Source: Candidatus Bathyarchaeota archaeon (GTDB lineage: Archaea; Thermoproteota; Bathyarchaeia; 40CM-2-53-6; FEN-987). From it: a stretch of 10,261 nt of DNA. The translations under genes were made by a program, and so were the position numbers. The DNA is taken from contig PMBQ01000375.1 of the NCBI GenBank assembly GCA_003152955.1, positions 4,146-14,406 of the forward strand, written 5' to 3'. This document shows, one piece after another, positions 3,848 to 10,261 of the stretch (its first letter is position 1; the number at the start of each line of letters is the position of its first letter). The notes below the pieces were generated by a model. That model was not told the DNA's origin, did no database searches, and saw nothing but the letters and a program-made list of their open reading frames with translations.

Positions 3848-3869
3848 GTTTATATAACCTGCGTCATAC
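3848..3869 (+). promoter_or_regulatory. Promoter of the HTH regulator gene: TATA box with overlapping operator-like element
   Basis: CGTTTATATAACC is a strong archaeal TATA region. It runs straight into a 17-base element at 3853-3869, TATAACCTGCGTCATAC, which matches elements at the sufB promoter (14 of 17) and the sufC promoter (12 of 17). Transcription should begin near 3880, leaving about ten bases before the ATG at 3890. A protein bound just downstream of the TATA box would block polymerase, so autorepression is likely if the HTH protein is the binder. Confidence 0.7.
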
Positions 3870-3889: not shown

Positions 3890-4273
3890 ATGCCAATGAT
3901 TCTCCCCGAGGAACTTGCTTCAAAGTCCGTAATTCCAGCGATTAGAGCACTTGTCGTGAAACGGCTTGTTGAAGAACACGGGATGACACAGCAGGAAGCC
4001 GCCAAGCTCTTGGGAGTAACCCAACCAGCCGTAAGCAAGTACCTTCACCAAAAACGCGGTGCAGCAATACGACTCACCGGAATCAAAGAAATCGAGCGAG
4101 CGACGGGTGACATTGCTGACATGGTCTCCTCACGCAAAGTAAAGCCTATCGAGGTCATGAGCAAGATCGAAGCGGCATGCGAATACGTCAGGAAAAACCG
4201 CTACATGTGCGATCTACATAAACGGCTAGAACCCGGCATAGATACAGAGTCATGCCACGTCTGTGAGCAGTGA
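3890..4273 (+). CDS. HTH transcriptional regulator with Cys/His-rich C-terminal tail
   Basis: 127 residues, cytosolic DNA-binding protein. Residues 15-57 hold a classic archaeal helix-turn-helix of the COG2522 type: VIPAIRALVVKRLVEEHGMT, then QQEAAKLLGVTQPAVSKYL with the recognition helix at TQPAVSKYLHQ. A middle helical region (about 64-95) may serve in dimer formation. The tail holds Cys97, Cys107, His110, Cys122, His123 and Cys125, arranged CDLH-x11-CHVC, well suited to bind zinc or an iron-sulfur cluster. No ThiN domain is fused. A second Met at codon 3 is an alternative start. The promoter carries the element also found before sufC and sufB, and the next gene encodes a peroxiredoxin, so I infer a redox or iron-sulfur sensor controlling suf. 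The regulator class is well supported; target and ligand are inference. Confidence 0.85.
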   Translation: MPMILPEELASKSVIPAIRALVVKRLVEEHGMTQQEAAKLLGVTQPAVSKYLHQKRGAAIRLTGIKEIERATGDIADMVSSRKVKPIEVMSKIEAACEYVRKNRYMCDLHKRLEPGIDTESCHVCEQ

Positions 4274-4311: not shown

Positions 4312-4773
4312 ATGGAGATCAAAATCAAAGTTGGCGACCTTGCCCCCGATTTCGAAGGGCCAACGGCCGACGGAAGTCTACTGGGCCTCAAAGATTTTGT
4401 TGGAAAGAAGAATGTCGTGCTCTATTTCTATCCAAAAGATGACACTCCGGGCTGCACGAAAGAAGCGTGCAGCTTCAGAGACAATCTGCAACCGATAAGA
4501 TCGCTGAATACTGAAATAGTCGGCGTGAGCCTTGACGGTGTCGAGTCCCACAAGAAGTTCATCACAAAATACAAGTTGACCTTTCCACTCATCAGTGACA
4601 AAGAGAAGCATATCGCAAGATCATACGGTATACTCAAGGATACGAGAACTTCCACAAACCGGGTTACATTTCTGATCGACAAGAATGGAAAAGGGGCAAA
4701 GATCTTTCCAAAAGTAGATGTCACCAAACATACCAACGAAGTCGTGGCAGCCCTTAGAGAACTCTCGGCCTAG
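4312..4773 (+). CDS. bcp: Thioredoxin-dependent peroxiredoxin, Bcp/PrxQ type
   Basis: 153 residues, cytosolic. It reduces hydrogen peroxide and organic hydroperoxides, using a thioredoxin-like donor. The thioredoxin fold opens with [15 protein letters not shown] (residues 7-21). The active site [20 protein letters not shown] carries the peroxidatic Cys48 and, five residues on, Cys53, the resolving Cys typical of atypical 2-Cys PrxQ enzymes. The conserved Arg is Arg117 in [11 protein letters not shown]. Length is normal for the family. It starts 38 bases after the HTH regulator stop, with its own ribosome binding site, so the two are probably co-transcribed. That pairing supports a redox role for the regulator. 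No sign of truncation. Confidence 0.93.
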
Positions 4774-4814
4774 AGGCTGGATTCTTGATCACATCGGTTC
4801 GATCAAAGAGCACT

Positions 4815-4850
4815 ATGTGTGTCTGTTGTTACTGCGACATGACTACCTAG
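4815..4850 (+). other. Tiny Cys-rich frame MCVCCYCDMTT (doubtful)
   Basis: In the 153-base gap between the peroxiredoxin gene and nuoB, an ATG opens an 11-residue frame with four Cys (CxCCxC) and stops at TAG 4848-4850. Such spacing could bind a metal or cluster. There is no strong ribosome binding site before it, and a frame this short arises easily by chance. The rest of the gap holds a T5 run at 4862-4866 that could end the upstream transcript. Confidence 0.15.
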
Positions 4851-4915
4851 ACTTGACAAACTTTTTCAATGGTGTTGTATTCGGATTCTCGAACGCACAC
4901 TGAGATAGTGGTTGC

Positions 4916-4919
4916 GGAG
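4916..4919 (+). promoter_or_regulatory. Ribosome binding site deciding the nuoB start
   Basis: GGAG lies seven bases before the ATG at 4927. This favours that ATG over the in-frame TTG at 4912, which lies upstream of the site. Confidence 0.55.
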
Positions 4920-4926
4920 CAGAAAA

Positions 4927-5445
4927 ATGAGCCAAGAAACACTGCAGGACTTTGCAGGCGTTTGGATCGGCAAGATAAGCGAGTTGGTGCGAACCATCAT
5001 TGGTTCTGGTCCGATCAAGTACGTGGTAAACTGGAGTCGCATGTACGCCCTATGGCCCGTTCATATCACCACGGCTTGTTGCAGCGCGGAGTTCGGGGCA
5101 ATGATGGGGCCACGTCTCGATCCGGAACGGTTTGGCATGCAAGCCGTTGCTGGAGGTCTCAGACAATGCGACCTGTTGATCGTAGAGGGCACGGTCACTA
5201 AGAAAATGGCTAAGCGGCTGAAAGTGGTCTACGAGCAAATGGCCAAACCGCGTTACGTCATAGCTATGGGTGACTGCGCTTGCTCGGGTGGATTGTTTCA
5301 TGATTCCTATAGCATCGTTAACGACGTCCACAAGCTCTTCCCAATCGACGTGTATGTACCTGGATGCCCCCCCAGACCTGAAGCACTCTTGAGCGCGATT
5401 GTTAAGCTCAGAGAGAAGATACGTAGACAAGAGGTGTTCGAATAG
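4927..5445 (+). CDS. nuoB: Complex I-like subunit NuoB (N2 cluster subunit)
   Basis: 172 residues. In complex I and its archaeal Fpo/Fqo relatives this peripheral-arm subunit holds the last [4Fe-4S] cluster (N2), which passes electrons to the quinone or phenazine. The ligands are visible: Cys51-Cys52 in TTACCSAEF, Cys117 in GDCACSGG and Cys147 in VPGCPPRPEA. The segment GPRLDPERFG is also typical. Related small subunits of group 4 NiFe hydrogenases share these Cys, but the NuoD partner here lacks nickel ligands, pointing to an oxidoreductase. It heads a tight operon: its TAG shares one base with the GTG start of nuoC. No nuoA precedes it; the gene upstream is a peroxiredoxin. An in-frame TTG at 4912 would add five residues. 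Confidence 0.95.
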   Translation: MSQETLQDFAGVWIGKISELVRTIIGSGPIKYVVNWSRMYALWPVHITTACCSAEFGAMMGPRLDPERFGMQAVAGGLRQCDLLIVEGTVTKKMAKRLKVVYEQMAKPRYVIAMGDCACSGGLFHDSYSIVNDVHKLFPIDVYVPGCPPRPEALLSAIVKLREKIRRQEVFE

Positions 5446-5939
5446 TGAGCCAAGATTCCATCTCCAGAGAAAAAAACACTATTGAGCAATTGAAAGCTCA
5501 GTTTCCAGATGCGATCAAAGACGCCGAAGTCGAACGACCACACCGTATCACGGTCAAATTCGAAAAAGACCACCTTCTGGATATTGCAAGATTCATGCGT
5601 GACCAACTTGGGTTCGACCACGTGAAGGGCGTAGCCGGCGTAGACTTTCCTACTCAGAAGAAAATAGAGGTCTTGTATTTCGCGGGTTCATATTCGAAAG
5701 CTGAAGTCAAGGACGTCATAGTCATACTCAAAACAGGGATGCCACGCGACAACCCTACGATCGCTTCTGTTGTCTCTGTGTGGGAGAGCGCTCATTACCA
5801 CGAACGCGAAACATTTGAAATGTTCGGCGTGAAATTTGAAGGCCACCCGGACCTCAGAAAATTGCTAACACTGGAGAACTGGGAAGGACCGCCTCCTATG
5901 CTCAAAGATATCAAATTCCCCGAGATGGGTCAACGATGA
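5445..5939 (+). CDS. nuoC: Complex I-like subunit NuoC (30 kDa-type subunit)
   Basis: 164 residues, a structural subunit of the peripheral arm that packs against NuoD and NuoB; it carries no cofactor. The family signature stands out at residues 120-141: ERETFEMFGVKFEGHPDLRK followed by LL, close to the usual ERE-x2-DMFGI-x-F-x-GHPDLRR. The end, ENWEGPPPMLKD, corresponds to the usual W-x-x-PLRKD. The N-terminal half (36-100) has the mixed alpha/beta pattern of the domain. The start is the GTG at 5445, which shares its first base with the nuoB stop; the end overlaps nuoD by four bases (ATGA), so the genes are translationally coupled. It is not fused to NuoD, unlike E. coli. Confidence 0.93.
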   Translation: MSQDSISREKNTIEQLKAQFPDAIKDAEVERPHRITVKFEKDHLLDIARFMRDQLGFDHVKGVAGVDFPTQKKIEVLYFAGSYSKAEVKDVIVILKTGMPRDNPTIASVVSVWESAHYHERETFEMFGVKFEGHPDLRKLLTLENWEGPPPMLKDIKFPEMGQR

Positions 5940-7069
5940 CAACAAACCCACCGAGCCCAATCACCAGCTCAAACAGGACTCCACAATCATCAACTCTCGA
6001 TGTAGCTGTCGGGCCTCAACACCCCGGTTCAGGTCACTGCCGGATACTCATCCGCGTCGACGGCGACTACATTGTGAGCTGTGATCCAGACATAGGATAC
6101 GTGCATAGAGGTTGCGAGAAGATTGCTGAATATCGGAATTATGTAAGCAACATACCACACCTTGAGCGCCCATGTATCCCAGACGCAATTCACATGAATT
6201 GGGGCTACGTGCTTCCAATTGAAGAACTACAAGGCGTGGAAGTGCCGCCGAGAGGAAAGTACATCTCAACCATAGCCGCGGAAATGAATCGCATAATGAG
6301 TCATTTGTATGGGCTCGCGATCATGCAAGGAGTCTTTTCGGGACACACGACAATCTTCATGTGGGGCTTCGGCGACCGTGACCTTTTCATGGAACTTGCA
6401 GAAATGCTAACTGGCGCCCGCATGACTTACTCTTTCTTGGCTCCCGGTGGCCCAAGGCGAGACCTTCCTTTTGGGTTCGAAGACCGCTTAACTAAGTTGC
6501 TGGATTATTTTGAGAAAAGACTTGTTGAATATGACAGAATGTTCTTCAGAAATCCCACCGTAATTGCAAGAGCCAAAGGAGTTGGGGTCCTCAAGCGAGA
6601 AGACGCGATGAAACTGGGCGTTGTGGGTCCAGTGTTGCGGGCTTCAGGAGTCGACTATGACGTCCGAAAAGTGGAACCCTATGGCGCATATAGCGACTTA
6701 GACTTCGAGATTCCAACGTTTGATGAAGGAGACTCCTATTCACGTTTCATCGTAAGATTTGAAGAGATGAAGCAGAGTGTAGGAATAATTCGGCAGGCTC
6801 TTAAGAAGATCCCCCAAGGTCCCATAGCACGCAAAGCACCTCTGGTTGCACCTGAAGGAGAAGCAACTGGACGGGTTGAGTCTTCTCGTGGCGAAATCGC
6901 TTACATGGTCATGGGTGACAACAGCGACAAACCGTATAGAGTCAAGATCATGAATGGGTCATTCCGAAACTTGATAGCTCTCCCATTCTTGATTCGCAAC
7001 GTGCACGTAGCAGACATGCCGATTATCTACGGAAGCTTGGACTATTGGCCCGTGGAAGCGGATAGGTGA
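5936..7069 (+). CDS. nuoD: Complex I-like subunit NuoD (49 kDa-type quinone-site subunit)
   Basis: 377 residues. Together with NuoB this subunit forms the quinone-reducing site. Landmarks are VGPQHPGSGHCRI (25-37), IGYVHRGCEKIAEYRNYV (53-70), a long helical core including MSHLYGL and FMWGFGDRD, ARMTYSFLAPGG, and the C-terminal GSLDYWPVEADR. The Cys pairs that bind nickel-iron in the homologous hydrogenase large subunits are missing: the N-terminal site has RGCEK rather than R-x-CG-x-x-C, and the C-terminus has no CxxC. So this is a complex I-type subunit, not a hydrogenase. Odd: the usual HPSTHG reads HPGSGH, and where many NuoD have RLDY this one has RPCI, so the His/Tyr pair of the quinone pocket seems altered. 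Residues 1-20 form a Ser/Pro/Thr-rich unstructured start. It overlaps nuoC by four bases. Confidence 0.94.
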   Translation: MTTNPPSPITSSNRTPQSSTLDVAVGPQHPGSGHCRILIRVDGDYIVSCDPDIGYVHRGCEKIAEYRNYVSNIPHLERPCIPDAIHMNWGYVLPIEELQGVEVPPRGKYISTIAAEMNRIMSHLYGLAIMQGVFSGHTTIFMWGFGDRDLFMELAEMLTGARMTYSFLAPGGPRRDLPFGFEDRLTKLLDYFEKRLVEYDRMFFRNPTVIARAKGVGVLKREDAMKLGVVGPVLRASGVDYDVRKVEPYGAYSDLDFEIPTFDEGDSYSRFIVRFEEMKQSVGIIRQALKKIPQGPIARKAPLVAPEGEATGRVESSRGEIAYMVMGDNSDKPYRVKIMNGSFRNLIALPFLIRNVHVADMPIIYGSLDYWPVEADR

Positions 7070-7079
7070 GGGTTGTTCT

Positions 7080-7565
7080 ATGAGCGCTGCAATTCTCGGA
7101 GCAGTGTACGAAGGAGTGAAACACATCTTCAAGCGTACCTTCACTGTGAAGTACCCCTATCAGAAGGTCCTCCTTCCAAAAGGATTCCGAGGTCGACATC
7201 TGCTCTACATGGAAAAATGCACAGGCTGCGGCATCTGCGCTTGGATCTGCCCTGAAAGATGCATTTCATTAGTTCCGGTTTCGGACAACAAAGAGTACCC
7301 ACAGAACCCGGAGAAACGTTTCCCCCAATACTGGTACGCTCGTTGCTGTTTCTGTCATTTCTGCACAGACTACTGTCCGACGGGAGCCTTGGACTACACG
7401 CCGGATTACGAATTAGCAGAGTACGATCGCGCTCTACTGCTGTGGAGCCCTGAACGTCTCTCGAGACCTCCGACGAACGTCGGTGAATATCGTTCGGTGT
7501 TCCACGGAGGCAACGGAAACCATGGAGTCACATACGAGTCCGCCCTGAAGCAGAAAACAAAATGA
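7080..7565 (+). CDS. nuoI: Complex I-like subunit NuoI (two [4Fe-4S] ferredoxin subunit)
   Basis: 161 residues. In complex I this subunit carries clusters N6a and N6b and relays electrons towards NuoB. Two ferredoxin motifs are complete: Cys47-x2-Cys50-x2-Cys53-x3-Cys57-Pro and Cys89-x2-Cys92-x2-Cys95-x3-Cys99-Pro. Cys61 and Cys90 are extra. Upstream, VKYPYQKVLLPKGFRGRHLL is the usual NuoI lead-in. The C-terminal tail beyond residue 125 is not recognised and has a Gly/Asn-rich patch (HGGNGNHG). The ATG is 10 bases after the nuoD stop, and GGTGAGGG across that stop is the ribosome binding site. Odd: nuoH normally lies between nuoD and nuoI and is missing here, and no nuoJ, K, L, M or N follows; the next gene is sufC after a gap of about 190-225 bases. 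Confidence 0.95.
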   Translation: MSAAILGAVYEGVKHIFKRTFTVKYPYQKVLLPKGFRGRHLLYMEKCTGCGICAWICPERCISLVPVSDNKEYPQNPEKRFPQYWYARCCFCHFCTDYCPTGALDYTPDYELAEYDRALLLWSPERLSRPPTNVGEYRSVFHGGNGNHGVTYESALKQKTK

Positions 7566-7720: not shown

Positions 7721-7737
7721 TATAACGTACGGCATAT
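7719..7737 (+). promoter_or_regulatory. Promoter of sufC: TATA box with overlapping operator-like element
   Basis: AATTATAAC is the TATA region. The 17-base element TATAACGTACGGCATAT occupies 7721-7737 and differs at three positions from the one before sufB. A second AT-rich box, CATATTTAATAAAC (7733-7746), follows directly and could be an alternative TATA box. With the first box, transcription would begin near 7748, just before the GTG at 7755; with the second it would begin near 7765 and only the ATG at 7791 could be used. Confidence 0.7.
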
Positions 7738-7790
7738 TTAATAAACAGACAAAAGTGTCAGCAAACACAAACACCCGACACGGGATCACA

Positions 7791-8585
7791 ATGGTCACAA
7801 CACTCGAAATCAAGGACCTGCACGTAAGTATCGAGTCGAAGCAGATCCTAAAGGGCGTCAATCTTAGAGTCGCTCAAAGCGAGATTCACGCGATCATGGG
7901 TCCAAATGGATCCGGAAAGAGCACTTTGGCAAATACTTTGATGGGACATCCAAAATACAAAGTGGATAGCGGCGACATTCTAGTCAACGGAGAGAGTATT
8001 ATCGGATTGACACCAGACAAACGTGCCAAGAAAGGACTGTTCTTGGCGTTCCAGTATCCGCTGGAGATTTCCGGTGTCCCGCTTGCACAATTCCTCAGGT
8101 CTGCCTACAGGGCAGTCAAAGGAGAAGCACAGAAGACGGAAACGAAAGGGGTAGGCGGCGAGATGATCTCCGCGTTGGCTTTCAAGAAGAAGTTGGAGGA
8201 GAAGCTGAAGGAAGTTGACCTGGATTCGTCATTCACAAAACGCTATCTGAATGAGGGTTTCTCGGGTGGAGAGAAGAAACGTGCCGAAATCCTTCAAATG
8301 GCCATCCTGCAGCCGGCTATAGCGATTATGGATGAAACCGATTCTGGATTGGATATTGACGCAGTGCGAAAAGTCGCTGAAGTGATTGCTAGAATGGCTG
8401 GCCCTGAGATGGGAGTCCTCCTAATAACGCACTATCAGCGGATTCTCGATTACATTAAACCTCAGTTCGTTCATGTGATGGCCGACGGGCGAATATTCCA
8501 GTCAGGTGGTCCCGAATTGGCGAAGATGCTTGAAGTAAAGGGCTATGAATGGATTGAGCATCAGGCTTCGCCAACTCCTGTTTGA
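7791..8585 (+). CDS. sufC: Fe-S cluster assembly ATPase SufC
   Basis: 264 residues from the ATG at 7791. SufC is the ABC-type ATPase that drives shape changes in the SufB-SufD scaffold during cluster assembly in the cytosol. All motifs are present: Walker A GPNGSGKST (37-45), the Q loop around LAFQYPLEISGVP, signature GFSGGEKKR (156-164), Walker B with the SufC-typical DETDSGLDID (181-190), and the switch His in LLITHYQRI. Length is normal (about 250-265). An in-frame GTG at 7755 would add 12 residues. The family usually begins near the LEIKDLHV strand, favouring 7791, but the spacing from the shared promoter element (22-25 bases before the start in the HTH and sufB genes) favours 7755; I leave this open. 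sufB follows 46 bases on with its own promoter. Confidence 0.97.
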   Translation: MVTTLEIKDLHVSIESKQILKGVNLRVAQSEIHAIMGPNGSGKSTLANTLMGHPKYKVDSGDILVNGESIIGLTPDKRAKKGLFLAFQYPLEISGVPLAQFLRSAYRAVKGEAQKTETKGVGGEMISALAFKKKLEEKLKEVDLDSSFTKRYLNEGFSGGEKKRAEILQMAILQPAIAIMDETDSGLDIDAVRKVAEVIARMAGPEMGVLLITHYQRILDYIKPQFVHVMADGRIFQSGGPELAKMLEVKGYEWIEHQASPTPV

Positions 8586-8593
8586 AGAGAATA

Positions 8594-8612
8594 CTTATAA
8601 CGTATGTCATAC
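8594..8612 (+). promoter_or_regulatory. Promoter of sufB: TATA box with overlapping palindromic operator-like element
   Basis: CTTATAAC is the TATA box and the 17-base element TATAACGTATGTCATAC lies at 8596-8612. Its core GTATG-T-CATAC (8602-8612) is a perfect palindrome around one base, the expected shape for a dimeric HTH repressor site. Transcription would begin near 8624, about eight bases before the ATG. It shares 14 of 17 positions with each of the HTH-gene and sufC copies, and lies in a 46-base gap. Confidence 0.75.
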
Positions 8613-8631: not shown

Positions 8632-10035
8632 ATGGCCGCCAAACAAACGCTCGACATCGATTACACGAAGTACAATTTCAGAGACTCAGATGCTTCCTAC
8701 GAATACAAATTTCCGAAGGGATTAACGCGGGAAGTCGTCGAGCGGATTTCACAAATCAAGAAAGAACCTGACTGGATGCTCCAGTTCAGGTTGCGGTCCT
8801 ATGAGCATTTCATGAAGAGACCACTGCCCGCCTGGGGTGGAGACCTCAGCACGCTGAAATTTGACGACATGCTCTACTATGCCAGCTCAACCGAAAAGAA
8901 GAGCCGATCATGGGACGATGTCCCAGCGTACATCAAAGACACATTTGACAAGTTAGGCATACCTGAAGCCGAAAGAAAATTCCTAGGAGGAGTGGGTGCT
9001 CAATACGAATCAGAAGTCGTCTATCACAGCCTGCGAGAAGATCTCGCAAAGAAGGGCATCATATTTGCAGACACGGATACCGCTCTTCGAGAATATCCTG
9101 AATTGTTCAAGAAATATTTCGGCACGGTAGTTCCCCCCGAAGACAACAAGTTTGCCGCACTGAATAGTGCAGTATGGAGCGGTGGGAGCTTCATCTACGT
9201 ACCCGAGGGAGTGACAGTGGATGTGCCTCTTCAGGCGTACTTTAGAATAAACACTCAGAACATGGGCCAATTTGAAAGAACACTGATAATTGCTGACATG
9301 GACAGCCGGTTGCATTACATTGAAGGATGCACGGCGCCCATCTACTCTACCGATTCACTTCACTCAGCAGTGGTCGAAATAATCGCCAAGCCCGGGGCAC
9401 ACGTTCGCTATACTACCATTCAGAATTGGTCCAATGACGTGTACAACTTGGTCACGAAGCGCGCGTACGCGTACGCGAATGCGACGATGGAATGGGTTGA
9501 CGGAAATCTGGGAAGCAAATTGACTATGAAGTATCCGTCGATCTATCTGCTTGGACCCGGCGCCAAGGGGGAGATCCTCTCCGTTGCCTTTGCCGGTAAA
9601 GGCCAACACCAAGATTCTGGAGGCAAAGTAGTGCACCTCGCGCCCAACACGACTTCCCGAATCACATCAAAATCGGTCTCGAAGGATGGGGGAAGAACTA
9701 CATACCGTGGGTTACTCCACGTGGCCAAAGGGGCGAAGGGCGTCAAGTCCAGTGTCCGATGTGATGCGCTGCTCCTCGACGAATATTCCAGAACAGACAC
9801 ATATCCATACAATGAAATCAATGAAGACGACGCAACCACAACCCACGAAGCAACGGTAGGAAAGATTGGGGAAGACCAACTGTTCTATTTGATGTCACGT
9901 GGTCTCTCTGAACAGGACTCCCTGAGCATGATCGTTATGGGATTCATGGAACCCTTCACCAAAGAACTGCCCATGGAATACGCCATTGAACTGAACCGGC
10001 TCATCCAAATGGAAATGGCAGGTTCAGTTGGCTAG
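8632..10035 (+). CDS. sufB: Fe-S cluster assembly scaffold protein SufB
   Basis: 467 residues. SufB is the cytosolic scaffold on which new iron-sulfur clusters form, in complex with SufD and the SufC ATPase. The N-terminal part has the family helix [18 protein letters not shown] (43-60); the core is a long beta-helix with [15 protein letters not shown] (192-206), [13 protein letters not shown] with Cys233, and [18 protein letters not shown] with Cys377, which lines up with the essential C-terminal Cys of E. coli Suf[10 protein letters not shown] (404-412) provides His405 and Glu406, the likely further cluster-forming residues. The C-terminal helices ([14 protein letters not shown]) bind SufC. 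Length is normal. The ATG follows a near-leaderless promoter. SufD follows 67 bases on. A GC-rich palindrome inside the gene (9462-9477) encodes part of RAYAYANA. Confidence 0.97.
9462..9477. repeat. 16-base perfect palindrome of alternating purine-pyrimidine
   Basis: CGCGTACGCGTACGCG is its own reverse complement and alternates pyrimidine and purine throughout. It lies within sufB and encodes part of an Ala/Tyr repeat, so coding constraint may explain it. Confidence 0.6.
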
Positions 10036-10102: not shown

Positions 10103-10261
10103 ATGGCAGAGTTGACATTAGCCTCTGCAACAGAACAATCCATTGCTGCGCTTTCAGGTTCCAGACAAGAACCTGATTGGCTGCAAGCATTTCGAATCAG
10201 GTCGCTTAGGCTTTTTCGGGAGCTGCCGGCTGAGCTCTCGAGCTTGTACACCAAGTATGTT
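10103..10261 (+). CDS. sufD: Fe-S cluster assembly protein SufD, N-terminal part (cut by window end)
   Basis: The ATG at 10103 opens a frame that runs off the window after 53 residues. The segment SRQEPDWLQAFRIRSLRLFRE (about 20-40), followed by LPAEL, is the N-terminal helix shared by SufB and SufD (EPxWL-x3-R-x3-hydrophobic), and the LP after it fits SufD. Position directly after sufB completes the SufBCD complex in the order C-B-D common in archaea. SufD pairs with SufB to form the scaffold and is needed for iron entry. The rest of the protein cannot be judged. GGTG at 10091-10094 may serve as its ribosome binding site. Confidence 0.88.
   Translation, partial: MAELTLASATEQSIAALSGSRQEPDWLQAFRIRSLRLFRELPAELSSLYTKYV

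Follow-up and report, generated by a model that had tools for sequence, protein, structure and literature searches.

The window, i.e. the whole 10,261-nucleotide stretch of DNA analysed here, comes from a Bathyarchaeia-type archaeon and carries on its forward strand a gene for a 127-residue helix-turn-helix (HTH) protein (3890..4273), a candidate regulator. Further along lie the iron-sulfur (Fe-S) cluster assembly genes sufC (7791..8585; 333 bits to TIGR01978, cut-off 212.8) and sufB (8632..10035; 720 bits to TIGR01980, cut-off 346.4), followed by the start of a sufD-like gene (10103..10261) which is cut by the window end and has a homologous full open reading frame after sufB in the nearest relative. 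This relative is the contig MEMY01000063.1 (L001) of archaeon RBG_16_50_20, an organism placed in the Bathyarchaeia in a table of PMC7642518; "class" is used below for the taxonomic class assigned to its genome by the search tool. Between the S12 gene and sufD, L001 has the gene order of the window except for two additional genes, with identities of 86-87% for the HTH protein and 92-93% for SufB, and comparison of the two sequences places the start of sufC at the ATG at 7791, the longer open reading frame beginning with a GTG at 7755.

Between the HTH and the suf genes (4312-7565) lie a peroxiredoxin gene and nuoB- and nuoI-like genes, the two open reading frames between the latter being nuoC/D-like by eye, and this order is kept in L001. 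Further upstream (316-1431), a 371-residue protein is encoded that combines an MG2 domain with a C-terminal CFI-box domain and has a relative at the same place in L001.

Three similar 17-mers, at 3853-3869, 7721-7737 and 8596-8612, had been reported ahead of the HTH gene, sufC and sufB, respectively, in a first-pass annotation made from the sequence alone. They exist as claimed, with zero mismatches to the proposed pattern; by reading, 12 of the 17 columns are common to all three and the sufB element shares 14 with each of the others. The corresponding operators on the forward strand are TATAACCTGCGTCATA at 3853..3868 (dyad core 3854-3867; overlapping the TATA-like TTTATATA) 5' of the HTH gene, TATAACGTACGGCATA at 7721..7736 (core 7722-7735) 5' of sufC and TATAACGTATGTCATA at 8596..8611 (core 8597-8610) 5' of sufB. 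A fourth match to the 17-base pattern was not found in the window with 3 mismatches allowed, and three matches at that tolerance were reached in none of 200 shuffles (mean 0.13), a test that is post hoc since the pattern was read off the sites themselves.

Because the 17-base pattern was derived from the window sites, a matrix was built from 66 unique sites of other genomes, excluding the window and L001; as the training sites were picked with a core regular expression, the matrix is sharpened in its core columns. The matrix ranks the window sites first, with scores of 23.3 for sufB (8595), 19.4 for sufC (7720) and 14.7 for the HTH gene (3852), the next-best place in the window scoring -1.5 and the best among 40 shuffled windows 8.96. 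On L001 (17.9 kb) the three orthologous places again come out on top (19.3, 14.7 and 14.6; next 4.0). No matrix place lies between 4312 and 7565 ahead of the sufC site, and none in the window belongs to the sufD-like gene, which is thus probably read through from sufB. By sequence comparison, the three window sites are copies of one conserved operator with two-fold symmetry.

What is conserved is the dyad ATRAC-N4-GTCAT, preferably flanked by T and A (T before the dyad in 69% and A after it in 79% of the matrix training set). Among 49 unique sites, the arm pairs hold in fractions of 1.0, 1.0, 0.86, 0.92 and 1.0, the three values of 1.0 being forced by the search expression and the other two being free, while the flanking pair holds in 0.41 and the central pairs in 0.20 and 0.65. 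The element had earlier been described as a TATA box plus GTATGTCATAC, with an 11-bp palindrome in the sufB site. This palindrome, GTATG-T-CATAC, is present in the sufB site, but its symmetry is not the conserved one, as its pairs hold in 0.39, 0.41, 0.76, 0.08 and 1.0 of the 49 sites (the last being forced). The palindrome was therefore rejected as the conserved dyad. The unit is not a TATA box plus GTATGTCATAC either, and TATAAC is better described as the left half-site of ATRAC-N4-GTCAT: the sufC operator of L001 has CATAAC at this position, followed by a separate TATA-like CTTAAATAA. The operators overlap or adjoin TATA-like elements, and in the HTH promoter of the window TATAAC does overlap TTTATATA.

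Conservation of the operator was examined in the 160 bp upstream of sufB, sufC and rhodanese genes that had been located by protein and not by motif, using an expression that also permits ATTAC, GGCAT and, with ATGAC, GTTAT. The operator precedes sufB in all 17 loci (19 were given; L056 and L057 were dropped, as the gene start was not covered), sufC in 17 of 18 loci (the exception being G002) and the rhodanese gene in 15 of 16 (the exception being G015). Shuffled versions of these upstream regions never gave more than one site in 200 rounds. The site in the relatives is TATAACATACGTCATAA or TATAACGTACGTCATAA before sufB and mostly ATGACGTACGTCAT before sufC, where it directly follows a TATA-like CTTAAATA; an example from the HTH gene is ATGACATAAGTCAT. 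When 18 sufB promoters (window, L001 and 16 relatives) are aligned, the operator is, by reading, the best conserved block 5' of the coding sequence, with a TATA-like block upstream of it conserved among the 16 relatives only. The rhodanese genes (L295-L310) mostly carry a second operator, 27-30 bp away from the first and covering the start codon, again by reading.

Across 21 genomes of the order, strand matches to the core ATRACNTNNGTCAT number 172, vs 19 for the same pattern read backwards; both counts were summed from a table, with palindromic places counted on both strands for both patterns. A stricter pattern has matches in 13 of 22 genomes of the order, several of those outside the SUF-bearing genomes (G027, G030, G031, G036, G037) having other central bases. 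Loss of the element before the suf genes of relatives, or equal abundance elsewhere, would have spoken against the dedicated Fe-S assembly regulon proposed at the outset; the element was found to be conserved before these genes and rare elsewhere. The three elements are thus almost certainly operators of such a regulon.

The operator was next sought at the promoters of the HTH gene family itself, which has matches, paralogs included, in 197 of 256 genomes of the class. The sample comprised 74 loci (window, L001, L011-L032, L183-L192 and L237-L276), those beyond L032 being leading entries of the match list and not a random draw; L033-L038, L039 and further listed HTH matches lie outside it. The operator is present at the gene's own promoter in 53 of the 74 loci (mean 0.055, largest 1, in shuffled sequences), including 20 of 20 for the window, L001 and L011-L028, and is missing from 21. 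Paired sites occur at 23 loci, spaced 19-22 bp from start to start; in the divergent class members L183-L192, two ATGAC-N4-GTCAT sites stand just upstream of a TATA-like element. The distant matches L033-L038 gave no site with a slightly different expression, L037 giving no alignment.

Presence of the site co-varies with residue 50 in the recognition helix, which is Lys in 51 and Arg in 2 of the 53 proteins with a site, and Leu in 14, Lys in 6 and Gln in 1 of the 21 without, so that 15 of the 21 site-less promoters accompany a different residue. A tree of the 74 proteins, built on few columns and with weak forks, accounts for the site label with 4 changes vs 18.6 with shuffled labels. The tree groups the window and L001 proteins with site-less paralogs and not with other SUF-bearing genomes, a placement with a long branch and weak support (91/77, 86/35). 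Counts from complete lists of the strict palindrome ATGAC-RYRY-GTCAT gave at least 2 places in 16 of 18 genomes picked for strong HTH matches, the other two, G216 and G217, having none. Of 20 genomes for which the HTH copy examined has no site, 15 gave no strict place; G114, G123, G146 and G147 have one each, and G185 has four, a second HTH copy (C5:35244) lying directly behind two of them. Sites are present in G005 and G020 with no HTH match found there, the completeness of these genomes being unstated. The operator at the gene's own promoter, together with the co-variation of residue 50, marks the HTH protein as the likely regulator, and we consider it very probable that the protein encoded at 3890-4273 regulates the Fe-S regulon of the window.

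The HTH protein belongs to the HTH_3 (XRE-like) family, its domain at residues 23-54 scoring 32.6 bits (Pfam cut-off 23), while a relative in L024 falls below the cut-off with 21.8 bits. An alignment of 30 sequences keeps four cysteines throughout, C97, C107, C122 and C125, which suggests an Fe-S or metal sensor. C94 and C110 are also present in 51 of the 53 proteins with a site; the window and L001 proteins have E94 and H110 and so lack two of the six cysteines of most relatives. An AF2 model of the protein is all-helical (mean pLDDT 76, pTM 0.72). Searches with E-values up to 0.001 gave no relative of known structure by sequence and no solved fold relative of the model.

The regulon is wider than the first-pass annotation proposed. 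Among the matches listed and the loci fetched, and with Pfam names taken from one example each, the recurrent neighbours of the operator are genes for FeS_assembly_P (SufT-like) proteins, two-domain rhodaneses, PALP enzymes, a ZIP transporter (38.5 bits, cut-off 35.1) and a protein of 125-126 residues that gave no Pfam or NCBIfam match, besides sufB and sufC. In 14 of 18 loci the FeS_assembly_P gene and the HTH gene are arranged divergently. A dedicated Fe-S assembly regulon is taken here to need a shared conserved operator 5' of the assembly genes, an operator at the promoter of the regulator itself and a regulator that responds to Fe-S supply. The first two were found (sufB 17/17, sufC 17/18; HTH gene 20/20, and 53/74 overall), and the third is predicted.

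A cysteine-rich HTH protein thus probably controls its own gene and the genes for Fe-S cluster assembly. It would bind ATRAC-N4-GTCAT as a dimer at its own, sufC and sufB promoters, where the bound dimer would cover or adjoin the TATA element or the start region and block initiation by barring TBP, TFB or RNA polymerase from the overlapping core promoter. The cysteine-rich C-terminal part may sense Fe-S, redox or metal status: with clusters plentiful the protein would repress, and with loss of the cofactor the suf, sulfur-transfer and iron genes would be released. This model as a whole, a repressor of the suf regulon responding to any Fe-S, redox or metal signal, is given a probability of about 0.6. 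Within it, repression is a likely mode of action, and for the cofactor being an Fe-S cluster rather than another cofactor the chances appear even. Comparing sequences establishes the operator, how well it is conserved, which genes it precedes and its association with this HTH family; DNA binding, dimer formation, the sign of control and the cofactor are inferred. Counted against the model are the 21 site-less promoters among 74, the sites of G005 and G020, the absence of strict palindromes from G216 and G217, the single palindromes of four site-less genomes, the tree placement, the redox targets outside the SUF-bearing group and the missing C94 and C110.

Alternative explanations can be weighed against the same data. 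The resemblance of TATAAC to a TATA box and its overlap with TTTATATA in the HTH promoter would suit a general core-promoter feature and nothing more, but in both the window and L001, which hold other genes as well, the three places are isolated, the element has few places per genome (172 vs 19 strand matches in the control) and the dyad persists where the left half reads CATAAC or ATGAC; this reading was rejected on the matrix ranking and the genome-wide counts and is given almost no weight. Another protein might bind the operator, the HTH gene being merely a target, and a candidate is the 247-residue HTH protein whose gene adjoins the operator beside the ZIP gene in L164, as that of its relative does in L105. 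This is improbable, as the operator tracks the promoter of the 127-residue HTH family itself over the class, together with the recognition-helix residue.

The same operator and HTH protein could also serve activation, or both roles depending on the position of the site. From a position immediately 5' of the TATA box, archaeal activators can assist TFB or TBP, and the paired sites of L183-L192, at such a position, could suit an activator too, a point counted against repression. The sufC site of the relatives directly after the TATA-like CTTAAATA, and the second rhodanese site, which by reading lies mostly over the start codon, suit blocking instead, and activation appears rather unlikely. There is some chance, still a minor one, that the regulon and its regulator are as proposed while the cysteines hold a structural zinc and the signal is a thiol switch, the sulfide or cysteine level, oxygen or similar. 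The CxxC-like pairs and the His for Cys at 110 in the window and L001 proteins suit zinc too, and rhodanese and PALP enzymes are among the targets, but the targets taken together have Fe-S assembly and iron, besides sulfur, at their centre.

The proposed HTH repressor invites comparison with the known bacterial regulators of Fe-S supply. SufR of cyanobacteria and some actinobacteria, as described in PMC8593673, likewise has an N-terminal DNA-binding domain, a four-cysteine C-terminal part and a palindromic operator at the suf and its own promoters with autoregulation. The same paper gives a cysteine spacing of C-X12-C-X13-C-X14-C and an operator CAAC-N6-GTTG for SufR, whereas the HTH protein has C97-X9-C107-X14-C122-X2-C125 and ATRAC-N4-GTCAT. 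The present system also differs in being archaeal and in its wider targets. A [4Fe-4S] cluster and repression further characterise SufR; for the HTH protein a cluster is suggested by the cysteines and repression is the likely mode. Judged from sequence, the HTH system would resemble SufR in its logic but differs from it in family, cysteine spacing and operator. With IscR, a bacterial member of the Rrf2 family, it shares control of Fe-S supply and autoregulation as a principle, but has a domain of the HTH_3 type. Models of the SufR and Rrf2 types are present in the searched libraries. The HTH protein gave no SufR-type family match at E-values up to 0.001 (10 Pfam and 3 NCBIfam matches) and no Rrf2-type match in Pfam or NCBIfam, and its membership in either family was therefore rejected. 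It belongs with the uncharacterised archaeal HTH_3-type regulators with a cysteine-rich tail; its relatives, where named, are called predicted transcriptional regulator, uncharacterized protein or hypothetical protein. The open-licence papers searched yielded no description of an archaeal suf regulator or of an operator, regulon or function for this HTH family.

Taken across the class, the data would fit an archaeal family of Fe-S/redox sensors, unrelated to IscR and SufR, that kept a palindromic operator and autoregulation across deeply divergent Bathyarchaeia, served redox genes and came in the SUF lineages to act as a master switch for building Fe-S clusters, transferring sulfur and handling iron, in which case it would be the first dedicated regulator of archaeal Fe-S assembly; this scenario is put forward as one that might equally turn out right or wrong. 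As regulator, operator and target list are proposed together, one small protein and three short DNA probes would suffice for testing, and the control of an essential Fe-S assembly pathway in archaea would become directly testable. The pairing of operators and the co-variation of residue 50 in the recognition helix suggest that this widespread, uncharacterised family of archaeal regulators has a specificity code.

Outside the SUF-bearing group, the targets that were read are redox genes and not suf. In these other Bathyarchaeia, the operator precedes genes with Oxidored_molyb, Flavodoxin, Nitroreductase, FAD_binding_4, DUF116 and TFIIB domains, among them molybdopterin oxidoreductase, FAD oxidase and TFB genes (L217, L224, L226, L229, L231, L234, L236, L220, L221, L230 and L233) and, by eye, genes for a ferritin-like and a small membrane protein, both without a Pfam match. 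The ZIP gene follows the operator in L123, L128, L133, L135, L149, L153, L160 and L164; on the other side of the operator lies the gene for the 247-residue protein, with its HTH-like start, in L164 and for a protein weakly VIT1-like, below the cut-off, in L128. Two further genes were seen at an operator on one occasion each: a carbonic-anhydrase gene in L176 and, identified by eye, an OsmC-like gene in L131. Motif matches that do not recur or lie in a reading frame were not counted as targets (L126, L136, L139/L145, L141, L144/L157, L151, L155 and L156).

A further target family of 114-126 residues gave no Pfam or NCBIfam match; its place in the regulon suggests that its role concerns Fe-S, sulfur or iron. 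Its members (L127, L132, L134, L142, L154, L158 and L006) have the operator about 25 bp before the start, mostly in common with a divergent PALP-enzyme gene. The model of a 125-residue protein of this kind is helical (mean pLDDT 84.5) and has no solved fold relative at E-values up to 0.001; C27, C63, C82 and an HHY-x-E motif are kept in four aligned members.
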